41,317 bases of DNA from Malacoplasma sp. (GTDB taxonomy: Bacteria; Bacillota_I; Bacilli_A; Mycoplasmatales; Mycoplasmoidaceae): contig JABUSB010000005.1 in the NCBI GenBank assembly GCA_021444005.1, forward strand, positions 39,350-80,666, read 5' to 3'. The notes below the pieces were generated by a model. The model saw only the letters and a list, made by a program, of their open reading frames with translations. It was not told the DNA's origin and ran no database searches. Shown here piece by piece: positions 26,337-37,997 of this stretch. A program made the translations under genes and the position numbers. Each line of letters starts with the position of its first letter. The first letter of the stretch is position 1.

Positions 26337-28046
26337 ATGAATAGTTTAAATGAGAAAAAGATTTTTGATGTCTATGGAAAAATGAACATTTGAAAACTTG
26401 GTCTTAATGTTATTATTCCATCGCTTCTTTTAACGCTATTGTTTGGTATTTATATTTTTGTGGATCAAATGATTATTATTAATTTGGTACCAAATGATGG
26501 TCATAATTATTTACTAAACTGGTTTACTAGTCAAAACCAAGCTGATTTGTATAACCGTGTTAGTGATTATATTGCACAAAACCCCAATGAAAATCTTGTA
26601 GTGTCAAACAATATTCATGGGTTTATTGTGTATCCAACCTCGAATTTGATTGGACCTTTTAGCTTGATTATTCTGTCTTTTGGTTATTTTATCAGTGCTG
26701 GAAGTGCAGTTATTTTTAGTAAAGCGCTAGCTACTAAAGATTACCAGCTAAAAGACAAAGTTTTGTGAAATTCGTTTTATGCAACAATTGCATTCAGTGT
26801 AGTAGCAACTATCATTATGGTTTTAATTCAAAACTCAGTGTTAAACCTGATGGTTTCTAAAACCCACACTGTGACTACTGTAATTGGGAACAACTCTGAA
26901 GGTGTAACAGCAGCTGATTTAAATAATTATTTAACACTTTGGTATAATGGGACAATTGATTTAGCTAACCAATATATTTACTGAATGAATGGGGCAATTT
27001 TATTTAGTTGTTTATCAAATTTATTTGTCTTCTTTATTAGAGCCGAAGGGTACAATTTATGAATTACATTAATTGGAATCTTTGCTAACATTGCAAACAT
27101 TATCTTTGATGTTATTTTAATAGTTGTCTTGAAAAAAGGAATAATGGGTGGGGGAATTGCAACATTTTTAGGTCAGTTTCTAAATTGTTTTGGCCTATTG
27201 GTGTATTTAGTAATTTTAAACCATAAGGATAAAACATTCATTAAATTTAGATCATTATTTAAAATTAAAGATTGTTTTTCAGCAAAAATCATTTTTGATT
27301 CTTTTTTGTTAGGTTCAAGTACATTTTTAAGAAAACTTTCATCTGCAGTTGCTAATATTGTTTATGTACCAGTTTTTATGGCAACAATGCAAGCAATTAG
27401 TCCTGTAGCTTTGAATTCATATAGTCAGTTAGCACCAACCCCAATTTATAATTTATTCTATTTTGCTATTTTTGGGATCATTGATGGAATGCGTCCAATC
27501 ATAAGCTATAACTATTCGCAAAAAAATTATAAGCGGGTAAAAGAAGGTTTTTGAATTGGAATCTTTACTGCAATTGTTTATTCATTTATTGTAATCAGTC
27601 TTGTGTTTTCGATTGTGCCAAACAATAATGCAATTCTAAAATCATTAAATGCAAATAGTGACTATGATAAACAAAACCTATTTTATCTAATGCTTTCACA
27701 AATGTGACAATTCCCATTCCTAGCATTATCGGTTGGGGGATTAGCTTTATTTCAGTCAACTAATAAAAAGACTTGAAATATTATCGCTTCCTTAACCCCT
27801 GGTGTATTTTGTTTCTACCCAATTATTTTTATTATGAGTTCAATCGCAATCCAAACAAATGCGGTAACAGTGATGGTATTTACTGGATTTACAAATAATG
27901 TTGTATCATCTTTTGTGTTGTTAGCATATTCAATTTACTTTATCGCTTTGTTTAGTAATAAGAAACTACAAGATTTTAATAATAAAATTGTTAAATTTTT
28001 CCAATTTAATAAGAAAACAAAATATAAAACAATTCAGATTAAATAA
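26337..28046 (+). CDS. MATE-family multidrug/toxin efflux transporter (569 aa)
   Basis: About twelve hydrophobic segments are visible, in two halves. Typical MATE sequence features are GPFSLIILSFGYFISAGSAVIFSKALATKDY (the G-x-G-x-A-x-x-x-S-x-x-x-G region of the first half, here with Ser/Ala), RAEGYNLWITLIGIFANIANIIFDVILI, and FGIIDGMRPIISYNYSQKNYKRVKEGF in the second half. The family exports cations and drugs by Na+ or H+ antiport; the substrate here cannot be told. An insertion of about 55 residues follows the first helix (DQMIIINLVPNDGHNY and on). Several TGA=Trp codons lie in the frame. It ends in a strong terminator. Confidence 0.88.
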
Positions 28047-28068
28047 TAATCTTTATTTCTAGAACTCT

Positions 28069-28098
28069 AAACCTGGTTTTGATACCAGGTTTTTTGTT
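28069..28098 (+). terminator. Terminator after the MATE gene
   Basis: AAACCTGGT (28069-28077) and ACCAGGTTT (28084-28092) form a perfect 9-bp stem followed by T residues. Confidence 0.88.
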
Positions 28099-28181
28099 TG
28101 TTGGTTAGTTGAAGTTGATAAAGTTTTATTTAATTATTATAATTTTTGCAAAAATAACCCATTAATTTTTAAAAAAATAAA

Positions 28182-28233
28182 AATTTTTGGATTTTTTTGG
28201 GGTTTTTTTCAAAAAATCTTACTTCTTTATATT
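28182..28233 (+). promoter_or_regulatory. Repeated promoter module, copy A
   Basis: A conserved block runs from a T-rich stretch through GGGGTTTTTTTC, AAAAAATCTTACTTC and TTTATATTG. TATATT (28228-28233) is the probable -10. T and A tracts repeat about every ten bases upstream (near 28184, 28192, 28203, 28211), as in curved DNA or UP-like elements. Copies B, C, D and F (28385, 29964, 30158 and 35445) match it almost base for base. Confidence 0.6.
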
Positions 28234-28369
28234 GAGGACCACCAGATAGAGGGTGAGCCTTATGGAAATAAACTTAAACAATAAAAGTGGTTTTAGAAAA
28301 TGTTTGATAATTTAAAACTATAAATCTCTATCCAATTAATGCACAATAGTTGTACTTTTATTTATTTTT
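28234..28369 (+). ncRNA. Putative structured small RNA, copy A
   Basis: No credible gene is present. Right after the promoter module, AGG/CCT (28235-28237, 28258-28260) and CACC/GGTG (28240-28243, 28252-28255) close a loop AGATAGAG (28244-28251). TGGTTTTA (28288-28295) pairs with TAAAACTA (28313-28320). CTCTATC (28326-28332) is the exact complement of loop bases 28245-28251, which would make a long-range loop contact. A weak hairpin, GCACAA/TTGTAC (28341-28355), with T residues follows as a possible terminator. The same plan recurs in copies C and D. The 5-prime end is uncertain by several bases. Confidence 0.5.
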
Positions 28370-28381
28370 AAAAAAATAAAA

Positions 28382-28420
28382 ATTTTTGGGGTTTTTTTCA
28401 AAAAATCTTACTTCTTTATA
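28382..28420 (+). promoter_or_regulatory. Repeated promoter module, copy B
   Basis: Same conserved block (TTTTTGGGGTTTTTTTC, AAAAAATCTTACTTC, TTTATAGTG). The -10 is TATAGT (28417-28422). It stands in front of the coiled-coil protein gene, which supports a promoter role. Confidence 0.65.
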
Positions 28421-28575
28421 GTGTAGAAGGATAAAAAGTCTAAATAAATAAGATAATGCTTCTACAAAAAAATGATAAAAACTTTAATAATTTAATGTAA
28501 TAAGATTAATAAATTATTTGCTAAAATTATTTTATAAATTAGTTTTTATCATTTAAATCAAAAAAATTTTATAAG
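28421..28575 (+). promoter_or_regulatory. Structured leader of the coiled-coil protein gene
   Basis: TGTAGAAG (28422-28429) pairs with CTTCTACA (28459-28466). A perfect 14-bp stem joins AAATGATAAAAACT (28470-28483) to AGTTTTTATCATTT (28541-28554), and inside it AATAATTT (28486-28493) pairs with AAATTATT (28511-28518). The leader ends at the ribosome site AAGGAGG. It has the look of a cis-acting RNA or RNase III substrate; I do not recognise a known riboswitch. Confidence 0.55.
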
Positions 28576-28585
28576 GAGGCACAAT

Positions 28586-29218
28586 ATGCCTAAGAAATTA
28601 AATGATTTATTTGAAAATGACGAAACTAATATTGAGGAAACAAATGCATCTGAAAAAGAATTTTTAGGACTTGTTAGAGGTTCTAAAACCATAATTCTTA
28701 GAAAATGCAAAGTTACTAAAGAAATTTTTGAAGACGAAAATGGAAATGTTTTCGAAATAACTAGATTTAAGGGAGGTATCGAATTTATGAAAACTGTAAA
28801 GTTGAGTGAACCAAAGGATCCGATTAAATTAATCTTTGAGATGATGAAAGATTTCAAGGACGAAATGACTAACTTCAGGAATGATATGAATAGTTTTAAA
28901 GATGAGCTTAATAATTTAAGATCAGATATGAACGAATTAAGAACAGATGTGAATGGTATAAAAGCAGATATGAATGAGTTAAGATCTGATGTAAATGCTC
29001 TAAAAGCAGATGTGAATAATTTAAGATCAGAAATGCAAAAAGGATTTTCTGAAGTCAATGCAGAGATCACTTTAATTAAAGAAGATATTTCTGTTCTTAA
29101 AAAAGATGTAGCAGTTCTTAAGAAGGACGTTTCAGTTCTTAAAGAAGATGTTGCCGATATTAAACAATGTCCAACAATCCAAAGAGAACTTAAAGAAATT
29201 AGAAAGAATAAAAAATAA
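28586..29218 (+). CDS. Coiled-coil protein resembling mycoplasma DUF16 proteins (210 aa)
   Basis: The ATG follows AAGGAGG. Residues 1-66 are an acidic, non-repetitive head (PKKLNDLFENDETNIEETNA). After FKGGIEFMKTVKLSEPKDPI (about residues 60-80) a long heptad- or undecad-like repeat follows: MNELRTDVNGIKADMNELRS, then VNALKADVNNLRSEM, later ISVLKKDVAVLKKDVSVLKE. This is a strong coiled coil, ending in a basic tail. DUF16 proteins of Mycoplasma pneumoniae have the same kind of C-terminal coiled coil; the link is by resemblance only. Within the gene, AAGGGAGG (28769-28776) sits 10 nt before an in-frame ATG (28787), so a 143-aa shorter product is possible. The paralogue remnant at 29589 has the same internal site. 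Confidence 0.78.
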   Translation: MPKKLNDLFENDETNIEETNASEKEFLGLVRGSKTIILRKCKVTKEIFEDENGNVFEITRFKGGIEFMKTVKLSEPKDPIKLIFEMMKDFKDEMTNFRNDMNSFKDELNNLRSDMNELRTDVNGIKADMNELRSDVNALKADVNNLRSEMQKGFSEVNAEITLIKEDISVLKKDVAVLKKDVSVLKEDVADIKQCPTIQRELKEIRKNKK

Positions 29219-29341
29219 TATTAATTTCTTTTAAACATTTTCAGTATAAGGATTCATTAAATTTATCTTTGTTTTAATGTTGTTTTAATTATTTAGTATT
29301 TTGCATTTATAAAGTTTCAAATATTTTCAGATAATAAAACA

Positions 29342-29378
29342 AAAATGTACAGTTATTAATTGCTGTACATTTTTTCTT
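29342..29378 (+). terminator. Terminator after the coiled-coil gene
   Basis: AATGTACAG and CTGTACATT form a perfect 9-bp stem, followed by a T run. The 120 nt between the stop codon and this hairpin shows nothing else. Confidence 0.8.
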
Positions 29379-29410
29379 TTTTTAAATAAATTAAAAAATA
29401 AAATTTTGTT

Positions 29411-29460
29411 TTTAGATTTTTTTATTGTATGAGGTTCAAGAGATGAACATCTCCTAAAAC
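29411..29460 (+). repeat. Possible decayed copy of the RNA module
   Basis: A T-rich run and TTTATTGTATGAGG resemble the promoter end of copies A and D (TTTATATTGAGG). GTTC/GAAC (29434-29437, 29445-29448) or GAGAT/ATCTC (29440-29444, 29449-29453) could form the first hairpin. The loop motif AGATAGAG and the GGGGTTTTTTTC block are lost, so this is only suggestive. Confidence 0.25.
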
Positions 29461-29545
29461 AATTCTTAATTAATAATAGTAAACAAGGACTCTTTTAAAT
29501 CAATGTTTATTTTAAAAATATAAATTAATAAGTGAAAGTTAAAAA

Positions 29546-29582
29546 GATACCTCCTTTAATTAGTAATTTTAAAGGAGGTATC
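29546..29582 (+). promoter_or_regulatory. Hairpin that sequesters a ribosome-binding site
   Basis: GATACCTCCTTTAA (29546-29559) is the exact complement of TTAAAGGAGGTATC (29569-29582), with a 9-nt loop. The second arm contains AAAGGAGG, the ribosome site of the 48-aa gene at 29589. The 14-bp stem would hide it unless melted, cut, bound or translated through from upstream. Confidence 0.65.
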
Positions 29583-29588
29583 AAATTT

Positions 29589-29735
29589 ATGAGTACTAAA
29601 AAAATAAGTAATGGAAACAAAGAACCTTTTGCTATCATTTTAGAAATGATGAAAGAAATGAAAGAAGATATGAAGAATGAATTCTTAGAAGTAGATATTG
29701 AAATGACCTCAATAAAAGAAGACATTTCTTACTAA
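29589..29735 (+). CDS. Short paralogue of the coiled-coil protein (48 aa)
   Basis: ATG 29589 lies 10 nt after AAAGGAGG. The product reads MSTKKISNGNKEPFAIILEM and then MKEMKEDMKNEFLEVDIEMT, ending SIKEDISY. It matches the region of the 210-aa protein from MKTVKLSEPKDPIKLIFEMM onward but lacks the long coiled coil. An in-frame GTG at 29532 would add FKGGIKFM, also conserved, so this may be a truncated descendant of a full-length gene. Whether the short protein is made is open; its ribosome site is inside a perfect hairpin. The region 29736-29960 after it shows nothing I can support. Confidence 0.5.
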   Translation: MSTKKISNGNKEPFAIILEMMKEMKEDMKNEFLEVDIEMTSIKEDISY

Positions 29736-29961
29736 TGAATTTGCCTTTACTTAATTTTCTTATTTGTCACAAGACTATTGTATCTTATAGTTTTTTAAAA
29801 ACAACAATTATTTTATTTTTTTATTAAAAAGGTTGCTTTAAAACTAAGCATTAAGTAAAGAACGTGGTTTTTATAACTTAGTTCCAGTATTTTTAATCTC
29901 TTTTAAAGCATTGATTAATTTATTTAAAAATTTCCAAAAAAGAAAAAAATAAAAATTTTCC

Positions 29962-30003
29962 AATTTTTTTGGGGTTTTTTTCTAAAAATCTTACTTCCTT
30001 ATA
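29962..30003 (+). promoter_or_regulatory. Repeated promoter module, copy C
   Basis: Conserved block with two changes (TTTCTAAAAATC in place of TTTCAAAAAATC, and TTCCTTATAGTG in place of TTCTTTATAGTG). The -10 would be TATAGT at 30000-30005. Confidence 0.6.
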
Positions 30004-30130
30004 GTGTAGAGACCTAGATAGAGGATGCTCTACTAAAACCATTTTTAAATAAATAATTAATGTGGTTTTATAAATGGTTATTAATTAATAGCCATTTAAA
30101 TCTATCTAGAAATTAAAATAATAAATCCTC
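30004..30130 (+). ncRNA. Putative structured small RNA, copy C
   Basis: GTAGAG (30006-30011) pairs with CTCTAC (30028-30033), enclosing the conserved TAGATAGAGGAT. TAAAACCA (30034-30041) pairs perfectly with TGGTTTTA (30063-30070). AAATGG (30072-30077) pairs with CCATTT (30092-30097), extended by TATTAA/TTAATA inside. TCTATCTAG (30101-30109) is the exact 9-nt complement of the loop bases 30014-30022, and ATCCTC (30125-30130) complements GAGGAT (30021-30026). No coding potential is seen. The 3-prime end is uncertain; no clear terminator. Confidence 0.5.
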
Positions 30131-30154
30131 CATTCATTTTTTAAAAATTTTTAC

Positions 30155-30194
30155 ACTTTTTTGGGGTTTTTTTCAAAAAATCTTACTTCTTTAT
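30155..30194 (+). promoter_or_regulatory. Repeated promoter module, copy D
   Basis: Conserved block identical to copy A over GGGGTTTTTTTC, AAAAAATCTTACTTC and TTTATATTG. The -10 is TATATT (30192-30197). Confidence 0.6.
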
Positions 30195-30330
30195 ATTGAG
30201 GACCATTAGATAGAGGATGGTTCTTCTAGAACTTCATTAAACAATTAGTGATGTACTAAAGATAGCTTAATAGTTATCTATCTCTATCTCTATCAGAAAA
30301 TTTAATCATATTAACAATAGATGTTAAATT
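30195..30330 (+). ncRNA. Putative structured small RNA, copy D
   Basis: GAGGACCAT (30198-30206) pairs with ATGGTTCTT (30217-30225) in 9 continuous pairs including two G-T, closing the loop TAGATAGAGG. AGATAGCT (30260-30267) pairs with AGTTATCT (30272-30279). CTCTATC occurs twice downstream (30282-30288 and 30288-30294), each the exact complement of the loop bases GATAGAG. AAATTTAA/TTAAATTT or TTAACA/TGTTAA (about 30299-30333) could form a 3-prime hairpin. No gene is present. Confidence 0.5.
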
Positions 30331-30447
30331 TGAGACTCCATTTATAAATTTTTATTTTTCTAAGTTTTTTCATATAAAAATCCTTTATGCCTATACAAAT
30401 TAATGGATTAGTTTGATAGTTTTGAAACTTATTTAGAATATCATTAA

Positions 30448-30500
30448 ATAATTAGTGGTGTTCATTAAAAAATATTTAATAGTTATTTATCTAAACCACA
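30448..30500 (+). repeat. Degenerate partial copy of RNA module D (copy E)
   Basis: CATTAAATAATTAGTGGTGT matches CATTAAACAATTAGTGATGT of copy D, and TTTAATAGTTATTTATCTA matches its CTTAATAGTTATCTATCT. The promoter block and first hairpin are absent. The AGATA/TATCT stem of D is AAATA/TATTT here, a paired G-C to A-T change. Around it, 30331-30447 and 30501-30720 hold only small AT-rich hairpins such as AAAAGAATTAATAATTCTTT near 30580 and ATTAACTT/AAGTTAAT near 30610-30635. Confidence 0.45.
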
Positions 30501-30730
30501 TTATTTATATATAATGGTTTTCTTCTTATATTCTTTCCGCAGTTAATGAATACATTCATTGCATTTAAAAATATTTATAAAAAAAGAATTAATAATTCTT
30601 TTAAAAAATTATTAACTTAATCAATCAAGTTAATAAACCAAAGTTAAAATCACAAATAATTTAGTAAATAAATATTTAATCTTTCTTCTAAAATATAATA
30701 TGCTATATGAATTTCTAGGAGATTTATTAA

Positions 30731-31222
30731 ATGAATTACAAAGAAATTATTATTAATGAGCTTCGTAAAGCAAACCTAACTTTAGGGATTGCTGAATCTG
30801 TAACTGGGGGAATGATTGCATCAACATTTGTGGATGTTGCGGGTGCTTCCAAAGTTTTTAAAGGCGGCATTGTAGCTTACACTGATTTTGCAAAAAGCAA
30901 ATTATTGGGAGTAAGTACTGATGTCCTTGAAAAATATAGTGCCTATTCTGCAAATGTTGCCCGTGAAATGGCTAAAGGGATCCGAAACCGACTAGGAACT
31001 GATATTTCAATTTCAGTTACCGGATTTGCTGGCCCATTTAATGAAAACATTCCCTATGATGATAAAAAATGCATAGTTTACTTTTGTATTATCATTATTG
31101 ATAAAGTTTATGATTATGAAATGGTTTTAGTTGATGAAGGACGGACTAATAACCGAATTACAATCGTTTCTAAAATCATTGAAGAATTGTTTAAACTAGT
31201 TTATCAACCAGCTAATTTCTAA
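30731..31222 (+). CDS. CinA C-terminal-domain protein (nicotinamide-nucleotide amidohydrolase-like, 163 aa)
   Basis: The protein has the CinA C-terminal signature: AESVTGGMIASTFVDVAGAS, then FKGGIVAYTDFAKSKLLGV and SISVTGFAGP. Single-domain forms (PncC/YgaD type) deamidate NMN to nicotinate mononucleotide in NAD recycling. In Firmicutes cinA lies next to recA, as here (70 nt apart). The ATG follows CTAGGAG. The long AT-rich stretch ahead belongs to the RNA module region. Confidence 0.9.
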   Translation: MNYKEIIINELRKANLTLGIAESVTGGMIASTFVDVAGASKVFKGGIVAYTDFAKSKLLGVSTDVLEKYSAYSANVAREMAKGIRNRLGTDISISVTGFAGPFNENIPYDDKKCIVYFCIIIIDKVYDYEMVLVDEGRTNNRITIVSKIIEELFKLVYQPANF

Positions 31223-31292: not shown

Positions 31293-32273
31293 ATGAACGA
31301 TACTATGAACGAACGTGAATTAAGTTTAGCGCTTAAGGAAATTGAGAAAAAGTTTGGCAAACAAACTTTTAATCAAACTGAAAGTTTTTCTAACGAAGTT
31401 ATTTCAACTGGTAGCATATTACTTGACAAAGCTACTGGAGTTAATGGATTCCCAAAAGGGAAGATCATTGAAATCTATGGTAATGAATCATCTGGAAAAT
31501 CAACAATCGCATTACAAGTTGTAAGAGAATGTATTAACAATAATGGTAATGTCGCCTATATTGACCTAGAAAATTCACTTGATAAAAAATACCTTGATTC
31601 TTTAGGAATAGATGCTAGCAAAGTTTTAATTGCCAACCCAGAATATGGCGAACAAGCTTTTTCAATCATTGAAGCACTATTAAAAACGGAAATGATTGAT
31701 TTAATTGTGGTCGATTCTGTAGCGGCAATGGTGCCAAAAAGCGATATGGATGCTTCAATTGAAGATCAATCAATGGGGACCCACGCCCGTTTGATGTCAA
31801 AAGGATTAAAAATCATCCAACCAGCAATTGCTAAATCCAATACTTGTGTTATTTTCATCAATCAAATTCGTGAAAAAATTGGGGTTGTATTTGGGAATAA
31901 CGAAATCACAACTGGAGGGAGAGCACTAAAGTTTTTTAGTTGCCTTCGTCTTGATGTGAGACGTAGTGAATTGTTAAAAAATGGTAATGACATAATTGGG
32001 ATTAAATCCAAAATTGTGATTACTAAAAACAAAGTTGGTATCCCTTTTAAATCTTGTTTTGTTGACATCTTTTTCAATCAAGGCTTTAATCCATTTAAAG
32101 AAATCATTGATTTTGCAATCCAGTATGACATTATCCAAAAATCAGGTTCTTGATTTTATTACGATAAACAAAAAATCGGCCAAGGTAGAAATAACTTAGA
32201 AAACTATTTAGCAAACAATAATGAACTTTTTGAAACTATTAAAAGTTTAGTATTGCAAAAAATAACTAATTAA
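31293..32273 (+). CDS. recA: Recombinase RecA
   Basis: It forms filaments on single-stranded DNA for homologous recombination. Walker A is GNESSGKST (residues 63-71), Walker B region LIVVDSVAAMVPKSDMD, loop L1 and L2 regions include DQSMGTHARLMSKGLKII and EKIGVVFGNNEITTGGRALKFF. The motif usually written AEHALD is LENSLD. One TGA=Trp (SGSWFYYDKQ) joins the last 40 residues, which include GQGRNNLENYL. Length is 326 aa, short of E. coli because the acidic tail is lacking. The ATG follows GAGG. In antigen-varying mycoplasmas RecA supports gene conversion (family knowledge). Confidence 0.96.
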
Positions 32274-35439: not shown

Positions 35440-35483
35440 CATTTTTTGGGGTTTTTTTCAAAAATTCTTACTTCTTTATAGTG
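35440..35483 (+). promoter_or_regulatory. Repeated promoter module, copy F, in front of ruvA
   Basis: The same block as copies A-D (TTTTTTGGGGTTTTTTTC, AAAAATTCTTACTTC, TTTATAGTG), with -10 TATAGT (35478-35483). TGTAGAGG and CCTCTACA (about 35483-35506) follow, an 8-bp inverted repeat at the start of the transcript. The ruvA ribosome site AAGGAG comes 20 nt later. Confidence 0.65.
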
Positions 35484-35535
35484 TAGAGGGGTAAAAGCCT
35501 CTACAAAATATATTTTTTAAAACAAGGAGAGCGAT

Positions 35536-36180
35536 ATGCTAACTTATATAATTGGAAAAGTAGTTTATATTAGTAAAAACTACATTTTATTAGAAAACAA
35601 TGGTCAAGGTTACAAAATATTTGTAAGTAATCCTGACCAATATAAAGATGGGTGTGATTGCAAAATCTTTATATTTACAAAAATTTATCAAAACAATAAA
35701 AATAATATTGTCTTTGAATTATATGGTTTCACAAGTGTTAAAGAAAAGATCTTTTTCGAAACCCTAATGCAGATTTCGGGAATTGGCCCCAAAACCGGAT
35801 TAATCATTTTAAAAAATGATTTATCAGTCCTTAAAAATTTAATTGTGAATGAAGACGTAAATTCGCTTGCAGTACTTGAAGGATTTACTAACAAAACTGC
35901 ACTTGCAGTTGTGTCTGCACTTTCATACAAAATGAAAACCGAAAAAAATTATGAACCACACCCAACAGAAAATACTCAAAATAATTGTGAAACACAACAA
36001 AACTATAATGCAACTCAAGATTTAATTTCTGCACTTAAAGCATTGGGTTACAAACCTCAAGTTATTGAAAAAACAGTTAATAACTTATTACCACAAATTG
36101 CCAATACTAAAGAGGAAGAGATTAGCGATCTGATAAGTATTGCTATTCGATCAATTGTTGATGACAGTATTTCAAGTTAG
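35536..36180 (+). CDS. ruvA: Holliday junction DNA helicase subunit RuvA
   Basis: RuvA binds four-way junctions and loads RuvB. The N-terminal OB domain starts MLTYIIGKVVYISKNYILLE with the family phrase NNGQGYKIFV. The helix-hairpin-helix region reads FFETLMQISGIGPKTGLIIL. The C-terminal domain has TQDLISALKALGYKPQVIEK, the RuvB-binding part. Length is 214 aa, slightly long because of an Asn/Gln/Thr-rich linker (about residues 137-155). AAGGAGAGCGAT precedes the ATG. It overlaps ruvB by 20 nt. Confidence 0.95.
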   Translation: MLTYIIGKVVYISKNYILLENNGQGYKIFVSNPDQYKDGCDCKIFIFTKIYQNNKNNIVFELYGFTSVKEKIFFETLMQISGIGPKTGLIILKNDLSVLKNLIVNEDVNSLAVLEGFTNKTALAVVSALSYKMKTEKNYEPHPTENTQNNCETQQNYNATQDLISALKALGYKPQVIEKTVNNLLPQIANTKEEEISDLISIAIRSIVDDSISS

Positions 36181-37117
36181 ACCACAAACCCTTAAAGACT
36201 TTTGTGGTAAAAAAGCAATAAAGAAAAATTTGCTAGCTTATTTAAATAGTGCAAAATTACGCAACCAAGCATTGGATCATTGTTTATTATATGGCCCTGC
36301 AGGTGTTGGCAAAACAACGTTATCTCGAATTATAGCTAATGAGTTAAACCAAAAATTAAAAATCATTCAAGGACCAGAATTGCAAGAAAAAAGTGATGTT
36401 ATTAACTTAATTTATTCACTAAAAGAAAATAGTGTTATCTTCATTGATGAGATTCACTCAATTAACCAGAAGTGCTTTGAATTACTATATTCTGCAATGG
36501 AAGACTTTTTAATTAATATCGAAATTGGTAAAGAATATAATAAAAAAACTACAACTGTACCAATTCCTCGGTTTACATTAATTGGAGCAACTACTAAATT
36601 AGGTAATATCCCCACGCCTTTTGAAGAACGTTTTGGAATTGTGATTAATATTGGCGAATACCAGGAAGAAGAAATTCTCAATATTTTAAATTTTGCTGTA
36701 AAGGTTTGCGAGCTAGAAGTTGACGAATCTGCCCTTGATCTAATTGCAAAAAGATCTAAAGGAATTCCCAGAATTGCTAAAAGAATTTTGTCCCGCTACA
36801 TCGACTATGCTTTAGCACAAAAAAATTTAAGTACGAAAAAGATACTTGAAAACATTGGAGTTTATGAATATGGATTAAATGAAATTGACCTTAATTATTT
36901 ATCATGTATTAAAGCAAATAAAAAAGTGGGACTAAAAACAATTTCCCAAATTCTTAATGTTGATGAAAAAACGATATTAGATAAAATTGAACCATTTTTG
37001 ATTAAAAAGAATTTGATTTTTAAGTCGATCAATGGAAGAAGTTTAAGTGAAAAAGGAATTGAATTCATCTCTAAGTTTGATAAGCAAAACAACTCAAAAG
37101 AGGTGGTCAATGTTTAA
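36161..37117 (+). CDS. ruvB: Holliday junction DNA helicase subunit RuvB
   Basis: The AAA+ motor for branch migration. RPQTLKDFCGKKAIKKNL opens the protein; Walker A is GPAGVGKTT (residues 45-53), Walker B VIFIDEIHSI, and sensor region RFTLIGATTKLGNIPTPFEERFGI with the arginine finger. The winged-helix C-terminus includes GLKTISQILNVDEKTILDKIEPFLI. Length 318 aa. ATG 36161 lies inside ruvA, so translation is coupled; an in-frame TTG at 36140 is an alternative. No ruvC is seen, as is usual in Mollicutes. Confidence 0.95.
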   Translation: MTVFQVRPQTLKDFCGKKAIKKNLLAYLNSAKLRNQALDHCLLYGPAGVGKTTLSRIIANELNQKLKIIQGPELQEKSDVINLIYSLKENSVIFIDEIHSINQKCFELLYSAMEDFLINIEIGKEYNKKTTTVPIPRFTLIGATTKLGNIPTPFEERFGIVINIGEYQEEEILNILNFAVKVCELEVDESALDLIAKRSKGIPRIAKRILSRYIDYALAQKNLSTKKILENIGVYEYGLNEIDLNYLSCIKANKKVGLKTISQILNVDEKTILDKIEPFLIKKNLIFKSINGRSLSEKGIEFISKFDKQNNSKEVVNV

Positions 37118-37997
37118 ATCAATTGAGTTTATAAAAACTGCTTTAGTTGAAAAAATCATTGCTAACTTAAATGAATTTAATGCGATTTGGAATCCAAATT
37201 ATTTACCTATTAAATCATTTAACTTCAAAACTAATAAAGCATATATGGGTTGTAATCAAATATTGCTATCAATTTGGGGAAGCCAATATAAAGATCCCCG
37301 ATGGTTAACATTTAATCAAGCTAAAAGTTTAGATTTAAAAATTAAAAAAAGTGCTAAACCAATTTCATTAATTTATTATGGGCAACAAAAACCAGATTTA
37401 TCAGAATCTAAAGTTATTAAAGTATTTGATGTCTTTAATGCATTACAAATTGAAAATATGCCACCACTTGAAAATACTCAAATCAAGATGACTAAAAAAC
37501 TTTTAAATGTATTTATTGACAAGATCTTGGATATTTCACCAGTTAAGATTGTTTTGAGTTTAATTGATAAAACACCATGCTATAAACCATTACAAAAAAA
37601 TGTTGTTAACCAAATTAATTTACCACTTAAAACAAAAACAGAAAGTAGTGGAGCAATGCTTAGTCTACTAATTCACGAATTGAGTCATGCTAGCAAATGA
37701 CAAAACCAAAACAATCAAATAAATGAAAATCCTTGATATTCAGAAAAGGATTATGCTTTTGAAGAACTAGTAGTGGCTTTAACCCAAATGTATGTCTTTC
37801 AAGAATATAATATTAAACCAATTGGTTTTGACCACAAACCTTATAGCAAATACTGAATTGAACTTTTAAAAAACGATGGTGAAATGCTATTTTTAGCAGT
37901 TAATAAAGCTGCAATTGCATTCAACTGGTTAAAGCAAAATATTCTAGTGCAAGCACAAAATGTTATTTATGAACGCAATAAACAGGATAACGAATAA
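37110..37997 (+). CDS. ArdC-like protein: ssDNA-binding N-domain plus zincin metallopeptidase domain (295 aa)
   Basis: The N-terminal part follows the ArdC pattern: MGCNQILLSIWGSQYKDPRW then LTFNQAKSLDLKIKKSAKPI, and VIKVFDVFNALQIENMPP (compare the family phrases G-x-N-x-x-L-L, PRWxTFxQA, G-x-KxxPI and VFNxxQ). The C-terminal part has the zincin motif HELSH (residues 189-193) and a downstream YAFEELVVAL (about 215-224), whose Glu is the likely third zinc ligand, with the typical spacing. ArdC proteins of plasmids and phages counter restriction and bind single-stranded DNA. Two further TGA=Trp codons lie after 37700. ATG 37110 overlaps the ruvB stop by 8 nt, behind AAGAGGTGG. A chromosomal copy fused into a ruvAB operon is unexpected; no other mobile gene is next to it. 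Confidence 0.75.

Follow-up and report, generated by a model that had tools for sequence, protein, structure and literature searches.

The region upstream of cinA and recA in a Malacoplasma species raises the question of what several short, gene-free segments, each headed by a near-identical promoter-like module, do for the genes around them. The species is a cell-wall-less mollicute related to Malacoplasma penetrans, reads TGA as tryptophan (translation table 4) and is represented by an assembly of 983,880 bases in 13 contigs; the stretch analyzed here, hereafter the window, comprises 41,317 nucleotides of contig C9 (C9:39350-80666). An initial annotation had described three such segments, units A, C and D, as putative structured small RNAs in which the loop of a first hairpin has an exact complement further downstream, and the strings that it quoted, like the units themselves, are all present where it placed them. 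Based on patterns of paired change, we propose that the units belong to a structured RNA family with three hairpins (H1, H2 and H3) and a pseudoknot between the H1 loop and a strand after H3, a reading that largely holds. The free-standing status given to them is less secure, with a role as leaders of downstream genes fitting equally or better.

Alignment of equivalent stems revealed a shared architecture, with H1 at the transcript start, H2 and H3 next and then, on the 3' side, a strand that complements the H1 loop (Table 1). As had been noted, units A, C and D have the loop sequence AGATAGAG in common and each carries its exact complement; the heptamer CTCTATC occurs seven times in the window, both strands included, against 1.5 expected, a count reached by none of 100 shuffles. 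The clearest compensatory change is seen in H3, whose arms variously read GATTATT/AATAATC, GGTTATT/AATAGCC, GGATATT/AATATTC and GACTATT/AATAGTC. In shuffles of whole 3' arms, scored on paired cells and double changes, P was <0.0005 for H3, 0.0015 for H2 and 0.019 for H1, and the value observed for all helices combined was reached in 0 of 2000 shuffles; since the alignment of the arms was manual and the copies compared are paralogues, the P values should be read as guides, not as probabilities. The H1 result bears out the earlier statement that this stem changes with pairing kept. The corresponding series for a middle stem had compared non-equivalent stems, mixing H2 of unit C, H3 of unit D and the hairpin at the H3 position of unit A, and once these are realigned, pairing despite change is true of both H2 and H3. 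Loop and complement likewise change together, from GATAGAG/CTCTATC in A and D to CTAGATAGA/TCTATCTAG in C, and to GATAGAC/GTCTATC, ATAGAC/GTCTAT and GGATAGT/ACTATCC in the units on contigs C10, C8 and C5, respectively. Only 20 of 5040 permutations of the tails pair with the loops as well as their own tails do. Copy E, a decayed unit, shows a genuine paired change from AGATA/TATCT to AAATA/TATTT, as originally reported. Folding relative to dinucleotide shuffles gave z-scores of -4.7 for C, -5.5 for C8 and -4.8 for C5, moderate values for D (-2.8) and C10 (-2.9) and a weak one for A (-1.6).

At least four further units, found via other promoter sites, lie elsewhere in the source genome (C5:144589, C8:113753, C10:31437 and C12:17769), with decayed units also at C12:17982 and C12:16703; runs of N obscure C12:17769 in its 3' part and, on C8, C10 and C12, portions of the coiled-coil genes discussed below. 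A covariance model, R1, built from five copies retrieves nine copies in this genome, with E values of 2e-11 or lower for the five training copies and of 6e-6 to 0.6 for the remaining four. The same model returned nothing at E 0.1 or better from 9 other genomes of the genus and 94 other genomes of the family, a match at E 0.96 in genome G001 having been discarded as chance. Thus, the search of related Mollicutes proposed in the initial annotation yielded no copies outside the source genome, and the copies within it supplied the covariation. Rfam 15 recognized nine tRNAs and nothing else in the whole window, with no match at positions 28030-30730 even at E up to 5. Rfam families of compact, multi-hairpin, pseudoknotted RNAs located in 5' regions are alike in general form, but none matches this region. 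In line with the earlier remark that no described family has this pattern, the units would constitute an undescribed RNA family without a known counterpart.

Every intact unit has its own promoter of the module TTTTTTCnAAAAATCTTACTTC, the near-identity of which was recognized from the outset; it has 11 genome-wide matches at up to three mismatches, as against 0 for the reversed control. What had been overlooked is its reach, as the same module heads ruvA-ruvB in the window (35453) and, elsewhere in the source genome, a comEC-type competence gene (C5:145739; PF03772, E 4e-12), a C39-peptidase ATP-binding cassette (ABC) exporter (C10:29535; PF03412), a small double-glycine-leader peptide gene (C7:27921) and coiled-coil genes. 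In genome G003, which we take to be M. penetrans HF-2, a promoter pattern derived from its coiled-coil genes, ATGACA-N18-ATTAATATAATG (ATGACA...TTTTTACATnnATATARTG), has 19 sites (control 0) and heads ruvA (L097), cinA-recA (L096/L059), comEC, the C39 exporter, coiled-coil genes and a double-glycine peptide gene preceded by four tandem promoters. Two other species (G004 and G007) have a related promoter and then a hairpin before ruvA. An exact search for the promoter pattern in a wider collection of genome contigs gave one Bacillus match, judged to be chance. Together, the genes behind these sites suggest that the module marks a recombination and DNA-uptake regulon with a gene set shared by two species. 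Five genomes, the source genome among them, have a sigma-70-like gene flanked by rlmB and rplK, which is where sigH classically lies. In the source genome, this gene (L123:1435-2040, minus strand) matches TIGR02937 at E 4.3e-9, with 36.2 bits falling below the 42.9-bit cut-off, and Sigma70_r4_2 weakly; the M. penetrans gene (L122) matches TIGR02937 at E 9.8e-10. We infer that this sigH-position factor reads the regulon promoters.

Behind the regulon promoter in the source genome and M. penetrans lie small double-glycine-leader peptides (L040:8003-8308 and L084:2142-2444), with the C39-peptidase exporter behind the same promoter in both species; peptide and exporter might possibly represent a bacteriocin or pheromone coupled to recombination. 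Directly 3' of ruvA-ruvB in the window is an ArdC-like anti-restriction gene (37059-37997; ArdcN, E 1.8e-13; zincin-like MPTase-PolyVal, E 2.9e-15), which M. penetrans lacks at that place. Given its adjacency to ruvA-ruvB, it is apparently in the operon of the same promoter, and since ArdC-type proteins protect incoming DNA during conjugation, it may serve DNA uptake here.

By comparison of gene content, the regulon resembles that of the Mycoplasma genitalium sigma factor sigma-20 (MG428), which contains recA, ruvA and ruvB (PMC9262362). The two systems share an alternative sigma-70-family factor and the placement of recA and ruvAB behind a common promoter, here as read from sequence. They differ in that the sigma gene here occupies the sigH locus and is likened to MG428 by family, not by orthology. 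The sigma-20 consensus reportedly given by Torres-Puig in 2015 is TTGTCA-N18/19-ATTWAT, and the M. penetrans ATGACA-N18-ATTAAT fits it in part; the source species, by contrast, keeps TTAC..T...TATARTG but has a GGGGTT-like -35 element. The literature covered here, for sigma-20 a review (PMC9262362), describes no structured leader units of this type. A further likeness, judged here by gene content, is to the late competence regulon governed by streptococcal ComX (SigX), where a single class of alternative-sigma promoter also serves cinA-recA, a comEC gene, an exporter of the C39-peptidase type and a double-glycine peptide; the promoter itself is not alike.

In all 12 of the sites examined in the source genome, a hairpin starts at, or a few bases from, the expected transcript start, and many M. 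penetrans promoter sites likewise have a 5' hairpin, those of ruvA, comEC and the exporter being without one; the 5' stem at C5 and some other sites is not rare relative to shuffles (P up to 0.10). Such an inverted repeat at the start site could in principle act at the DNA level, as an operator or a recombination site. We regard this as highly improbable, for the arms differ with pairing kept (GTAGAG/CTCTAC, GAGAG/CTCTC, GAGGACCAT/ATGGTTCTT), which is unexpected of fixed-sequence recognition by a protein and speaks for RNA and against an operator in the DNA. Nor would the DNA-level reading account for H2, H3 and the pseudoknot. Site-specific promoter inversion, known for the lipoproteins of M. 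penetrans, was rejected as a reading of the units because the inverted repeat covers only the transcript start.

The units themselves contain no gene, as had been stated, but this need not make them independent transcripts. A terminator scan of the region found only two sites (28069-28092 and 29341-29374). Thus, no detected terminator separates A and leader B from the coiled-coil gene behind them, or C, D and E from cinA-recA. The unit at C5 runs into a coiled-coil gene, and no second promoter was found between the two. As the units thus lie 3' of regulon promoters and 5' of coiled-coil genes or cinA-recA without intervening terminators, a leader role fits at least equally well, and we put at about even the chance that they are structured 5' leaders acting in cis, on the coiled-coil gene at other loci and on cinA-recA in the case of C, D and E. 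Under this proposal, the units would be paralogous RNA modules transcribed from promoters that all belong to a single recombination and DNA-uptake regulon under an alternative sigma factor. The start of each RNA would fall about 7 nt downstream of the -10 box, within or beside the 5'-terminal H1; H2 and H3 would follow, with the strand after H3 pairing with the H1 loop to yield a pseudoknotted, compact 5' domain of about 100 nt. As part of a leader, the fold probably shields the 5' end, sets translation or read-through, or does both. That the units are transcribed, depend on the sigma factor, share a transcript with the gene that follows and exert a regulatory effect is in each case a prediction from sequence.

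Several observations weigh against this interpretation. The pseudoknot is favored by the tail permutations, yet, taken by themselves, its columns give no better than P = 0.06 when arms are shuffled; the family is known from one genome only, and hence its covariation rests on paralogues; and the cinA, ruvA and comEC leaders of M. penetrans are short and devoid of such units. Furthermore, in A and C10 the next promoter follows the pseudoknot strand at a distance of no more than about 50-60 nt; A, C10 and C8 are followed by short hairpins and then U-rich stretches that would suit free-standing RNAs too; and the fold is retained in C and D, neither of which has a coiled-coil gene directly behind it. 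These last features agree with the view of the initial annotation, of which the structured family with compensatory change stands, that the units are small RNAs in their own right. In that case they would belong to the same regulon, measure about 110-150 nt and act in trans, each with its own promoter and a weak terminator. The AGATAGA loop and its 3' complement would then alternate between two states, the closed pseudoknot and a duplex with a target or another copy, and some loops do pair better with the tail of a different copy (the C8 loop with the C10 tail). The possession of a promoter by each intact unit, the next promoter close behind A and C, the lack of any conserved open reading frame seen in the units and the weak hairpins with U-rich stretches behind A, C10 and C8 are consistent with this. 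Nevertheless, duplex tests against the start regions of eight regulon genes gave no consistent target, the best duplex (C8 with recA, z -3.4) not being common to the other copies, the terminator scan calls no unit end in the window, and units at other loci lie directly 5' of a coiled-coil gene; we therefore consider free-standing RNAs rather unlikely.

Several copies are decayed (E, C12:17982 and C12:16703), partial coiled-coil copies adjoin units both here and in M. penetrans, and recombination genes are part of the regulon. This invites the explanation that the units are passenger or reservoir DNA, namely leader and promoter remnants multiplied with the coiled-coil genes by recombination, their transcription being a mere by-product; in M. 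genitalium, sigma-20 is said to activate non-coding donor regions. However, compensatory change has preserved all three hairpins and the pairing of loop with tail in the intact copies, which argues against neutral decay and renders this account improbable. We tentatively suggest, as something that could well prove otherwise, that a lineage-specific, multi-copy, pseudoknotted RNA is a working part of an alternative-sigma regulon for recombination and DNA uptake in a near-minimal bacterium, for example as a riboregulator or as a trans-acting RNA exchanged between copies. As a riboregulator, it would keep cinA-recA and the coiled-coil genes in check, to be released when a signal undoes the knot between loop and tail.

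Other features of the locus concern the sequences next to the units. At the end of H1 in unit D, CTTCTAGAA (30223-30231) complements TTCTAGGAG (30713-30721) just 5' of cinA, a possible Shine-Dalgarno contact that is weak in the duplex test (z -2.2). The coiled-coil family has at least four copies in the source genome and 12 matches in M. penetrans. Its genes contain an internal Shine-Dalgarno sequence and ATG, GGAGGTATnnAATTTATG (window 28756-28807 and 29558-29609), and in the truncated copy (29590) the internal Shine-Dalgarno sequence lies within a hairpin of 14 bp. The long stem of leader B is kept at C10 with changed sequence (GTGAATGAAAAACT/AGTTTCTTCATTCAC); window positions 28471-28553 form a second structured domain of the coiled-coil leader, with a paired change in its closing stem between the C9/C5 loci and C10 and a conserved TTTGCTAAAATTATTTTA inside. 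In M. penetrans, L098, L099 and L101 have closely similar 5' leaders of about 150 nt, closed by GTATTGA/TCAATAC and containing GATAGAG; these link promoters of the same class to genes of another coiled-coil subfamily. The comEC gene there is preceded by three tandem non-coding units of a different fold (L092:1501-2040), each a promoter with a non-coding unit of about 165 nt and closing stems such as GAGAGGGTAA/TTACTCTC. The coiled-coil proteins resemble DUF16/UPF0134 proteins of Mycoplasma pneumoniae, which are also multi-copy coiled-coil proteins with an N-terminal 'EKEF' segment, but they differ in not matching PF01519. Assignment to DUF16 was rejected, no PF01519 match exceeding its cut-off in 59 genomes; among the matches listed, the sole one in the source genome (C9:11173-11346) lies outside the window and is not of the coiled-coil family. 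The coiled-coil N-terminus found no match in viral contigs.

Table 1. Features of the unit-bearing locus and of the ruvA region, in window coordinates
Feature	Positions	Strand	Sequence or remark	Basis
Intrinsic terminator of upstream MATE gene	28069-28092	+	5' limit of locus	terminator scan
Unit A regulon promoter	28198-28233	+	GGGGTTTTTTTCAAAAAATCTTACTTCTTTATATTG	11-member genome-wide module; reversed-pattern control 0; sequence
Unit A	28232-28332	+	most divergent copy	sequence, folding, stem alignment
Unit A H1	loop 28244-28251		GAGG..CACC/GGTG..CCTT around loop AGATAGAG	
Unit A hairpin at H3 position	28288-28295/28313-28320		TGGTTTTA/TAAAACTA	
Unit A pseudoknot strand	28326-28332		CTCTATC	
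Regulon promoter B	28387-28422	+	for coiled-coil gene	module search
Leader B	28423-28585	+		
Leader B 5' hairpin	28423-28429/28459-28465		GTAGAAG/CTTCTAC	
Leader B long stem	28471-28483/28541-28553		AATGATAAAAACT/AGTTTTTATCATT	
Coiled-coil protein gene	28586-29218	+	210 aa (table 4)	
Intrinsic terminator of coiled-coil gene	29341-29374	+		terminator scan
Second coiled-coil gene copy	29590-29735	+	truncated	sequence; similarity E 3.2e-7
Unit C regulon promoter	29970-30005	+		module search
Unit C	30004-30109	+		covariance model, stem alignment, folding
Unit C H1	30006-30011/30028-30033		GTAGAG/CTCTAC; loop CTAGATAGA (30014-30022)	
Unit C H2	30034-30041/30063-30070		TAAAACCA/TGGTTTTA	
Unit C H3	30075-30082/30087-30094		TGGTTATT/AATAGCCA	
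Unit C pseudoknot strand	30101-30109		TCTATCTAG	
Unit D regulon promoter	30162-30197	+	closest such promoter 5' of cinA-recA	module search, terminator scan
Unit D	30196-30294	+		sequence, stem alignment, folding
Unit D H1	30198-30206/30217-30225		GAGGACCAT/ATGGTTCTT; loop TAGATAGAGG	
Unit D H2	30232-30239/30245-30252		CTTCATTA/TTAGTGAT	
Unit D H3	30260-30267/30272-30279		AGATAGCT/AGTTATCT	
Unit D pseudoknot strands	30282-30288, 30288-30294		CTCTATC, two overlapping	
Copy E, decayed unit	about 30411-30492	+	H2 and H3 only	sequence; paired bases
cinA	30731-31222	+		PF02464, E 2e-39
recA	31293-32273	+		PF00154, E 3e-95
Promoter of same module and short 5' hairpin before ruvA	35447-35535	+	TGTAGAGG/CCTCTACA; ruvA start 35536	
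ruvA and ruvB	35536-37117	+		

Few regulators are known for how mycoplasmas turn on recombination in rare cells. Here, a conserved regulon that includes the sigH-locus sigma factor, ruvAB, comEC, cinA-recA, the C39 exporter and the peptide appears to carry an undescribed structured RNA family. As promoter, RNA and downstream genes are all defined, simple reporter tests can address whether the RNA controls recA and DNA uptake; if it does, RNA structure would serve as a control of both in the setting of a reduced genome.

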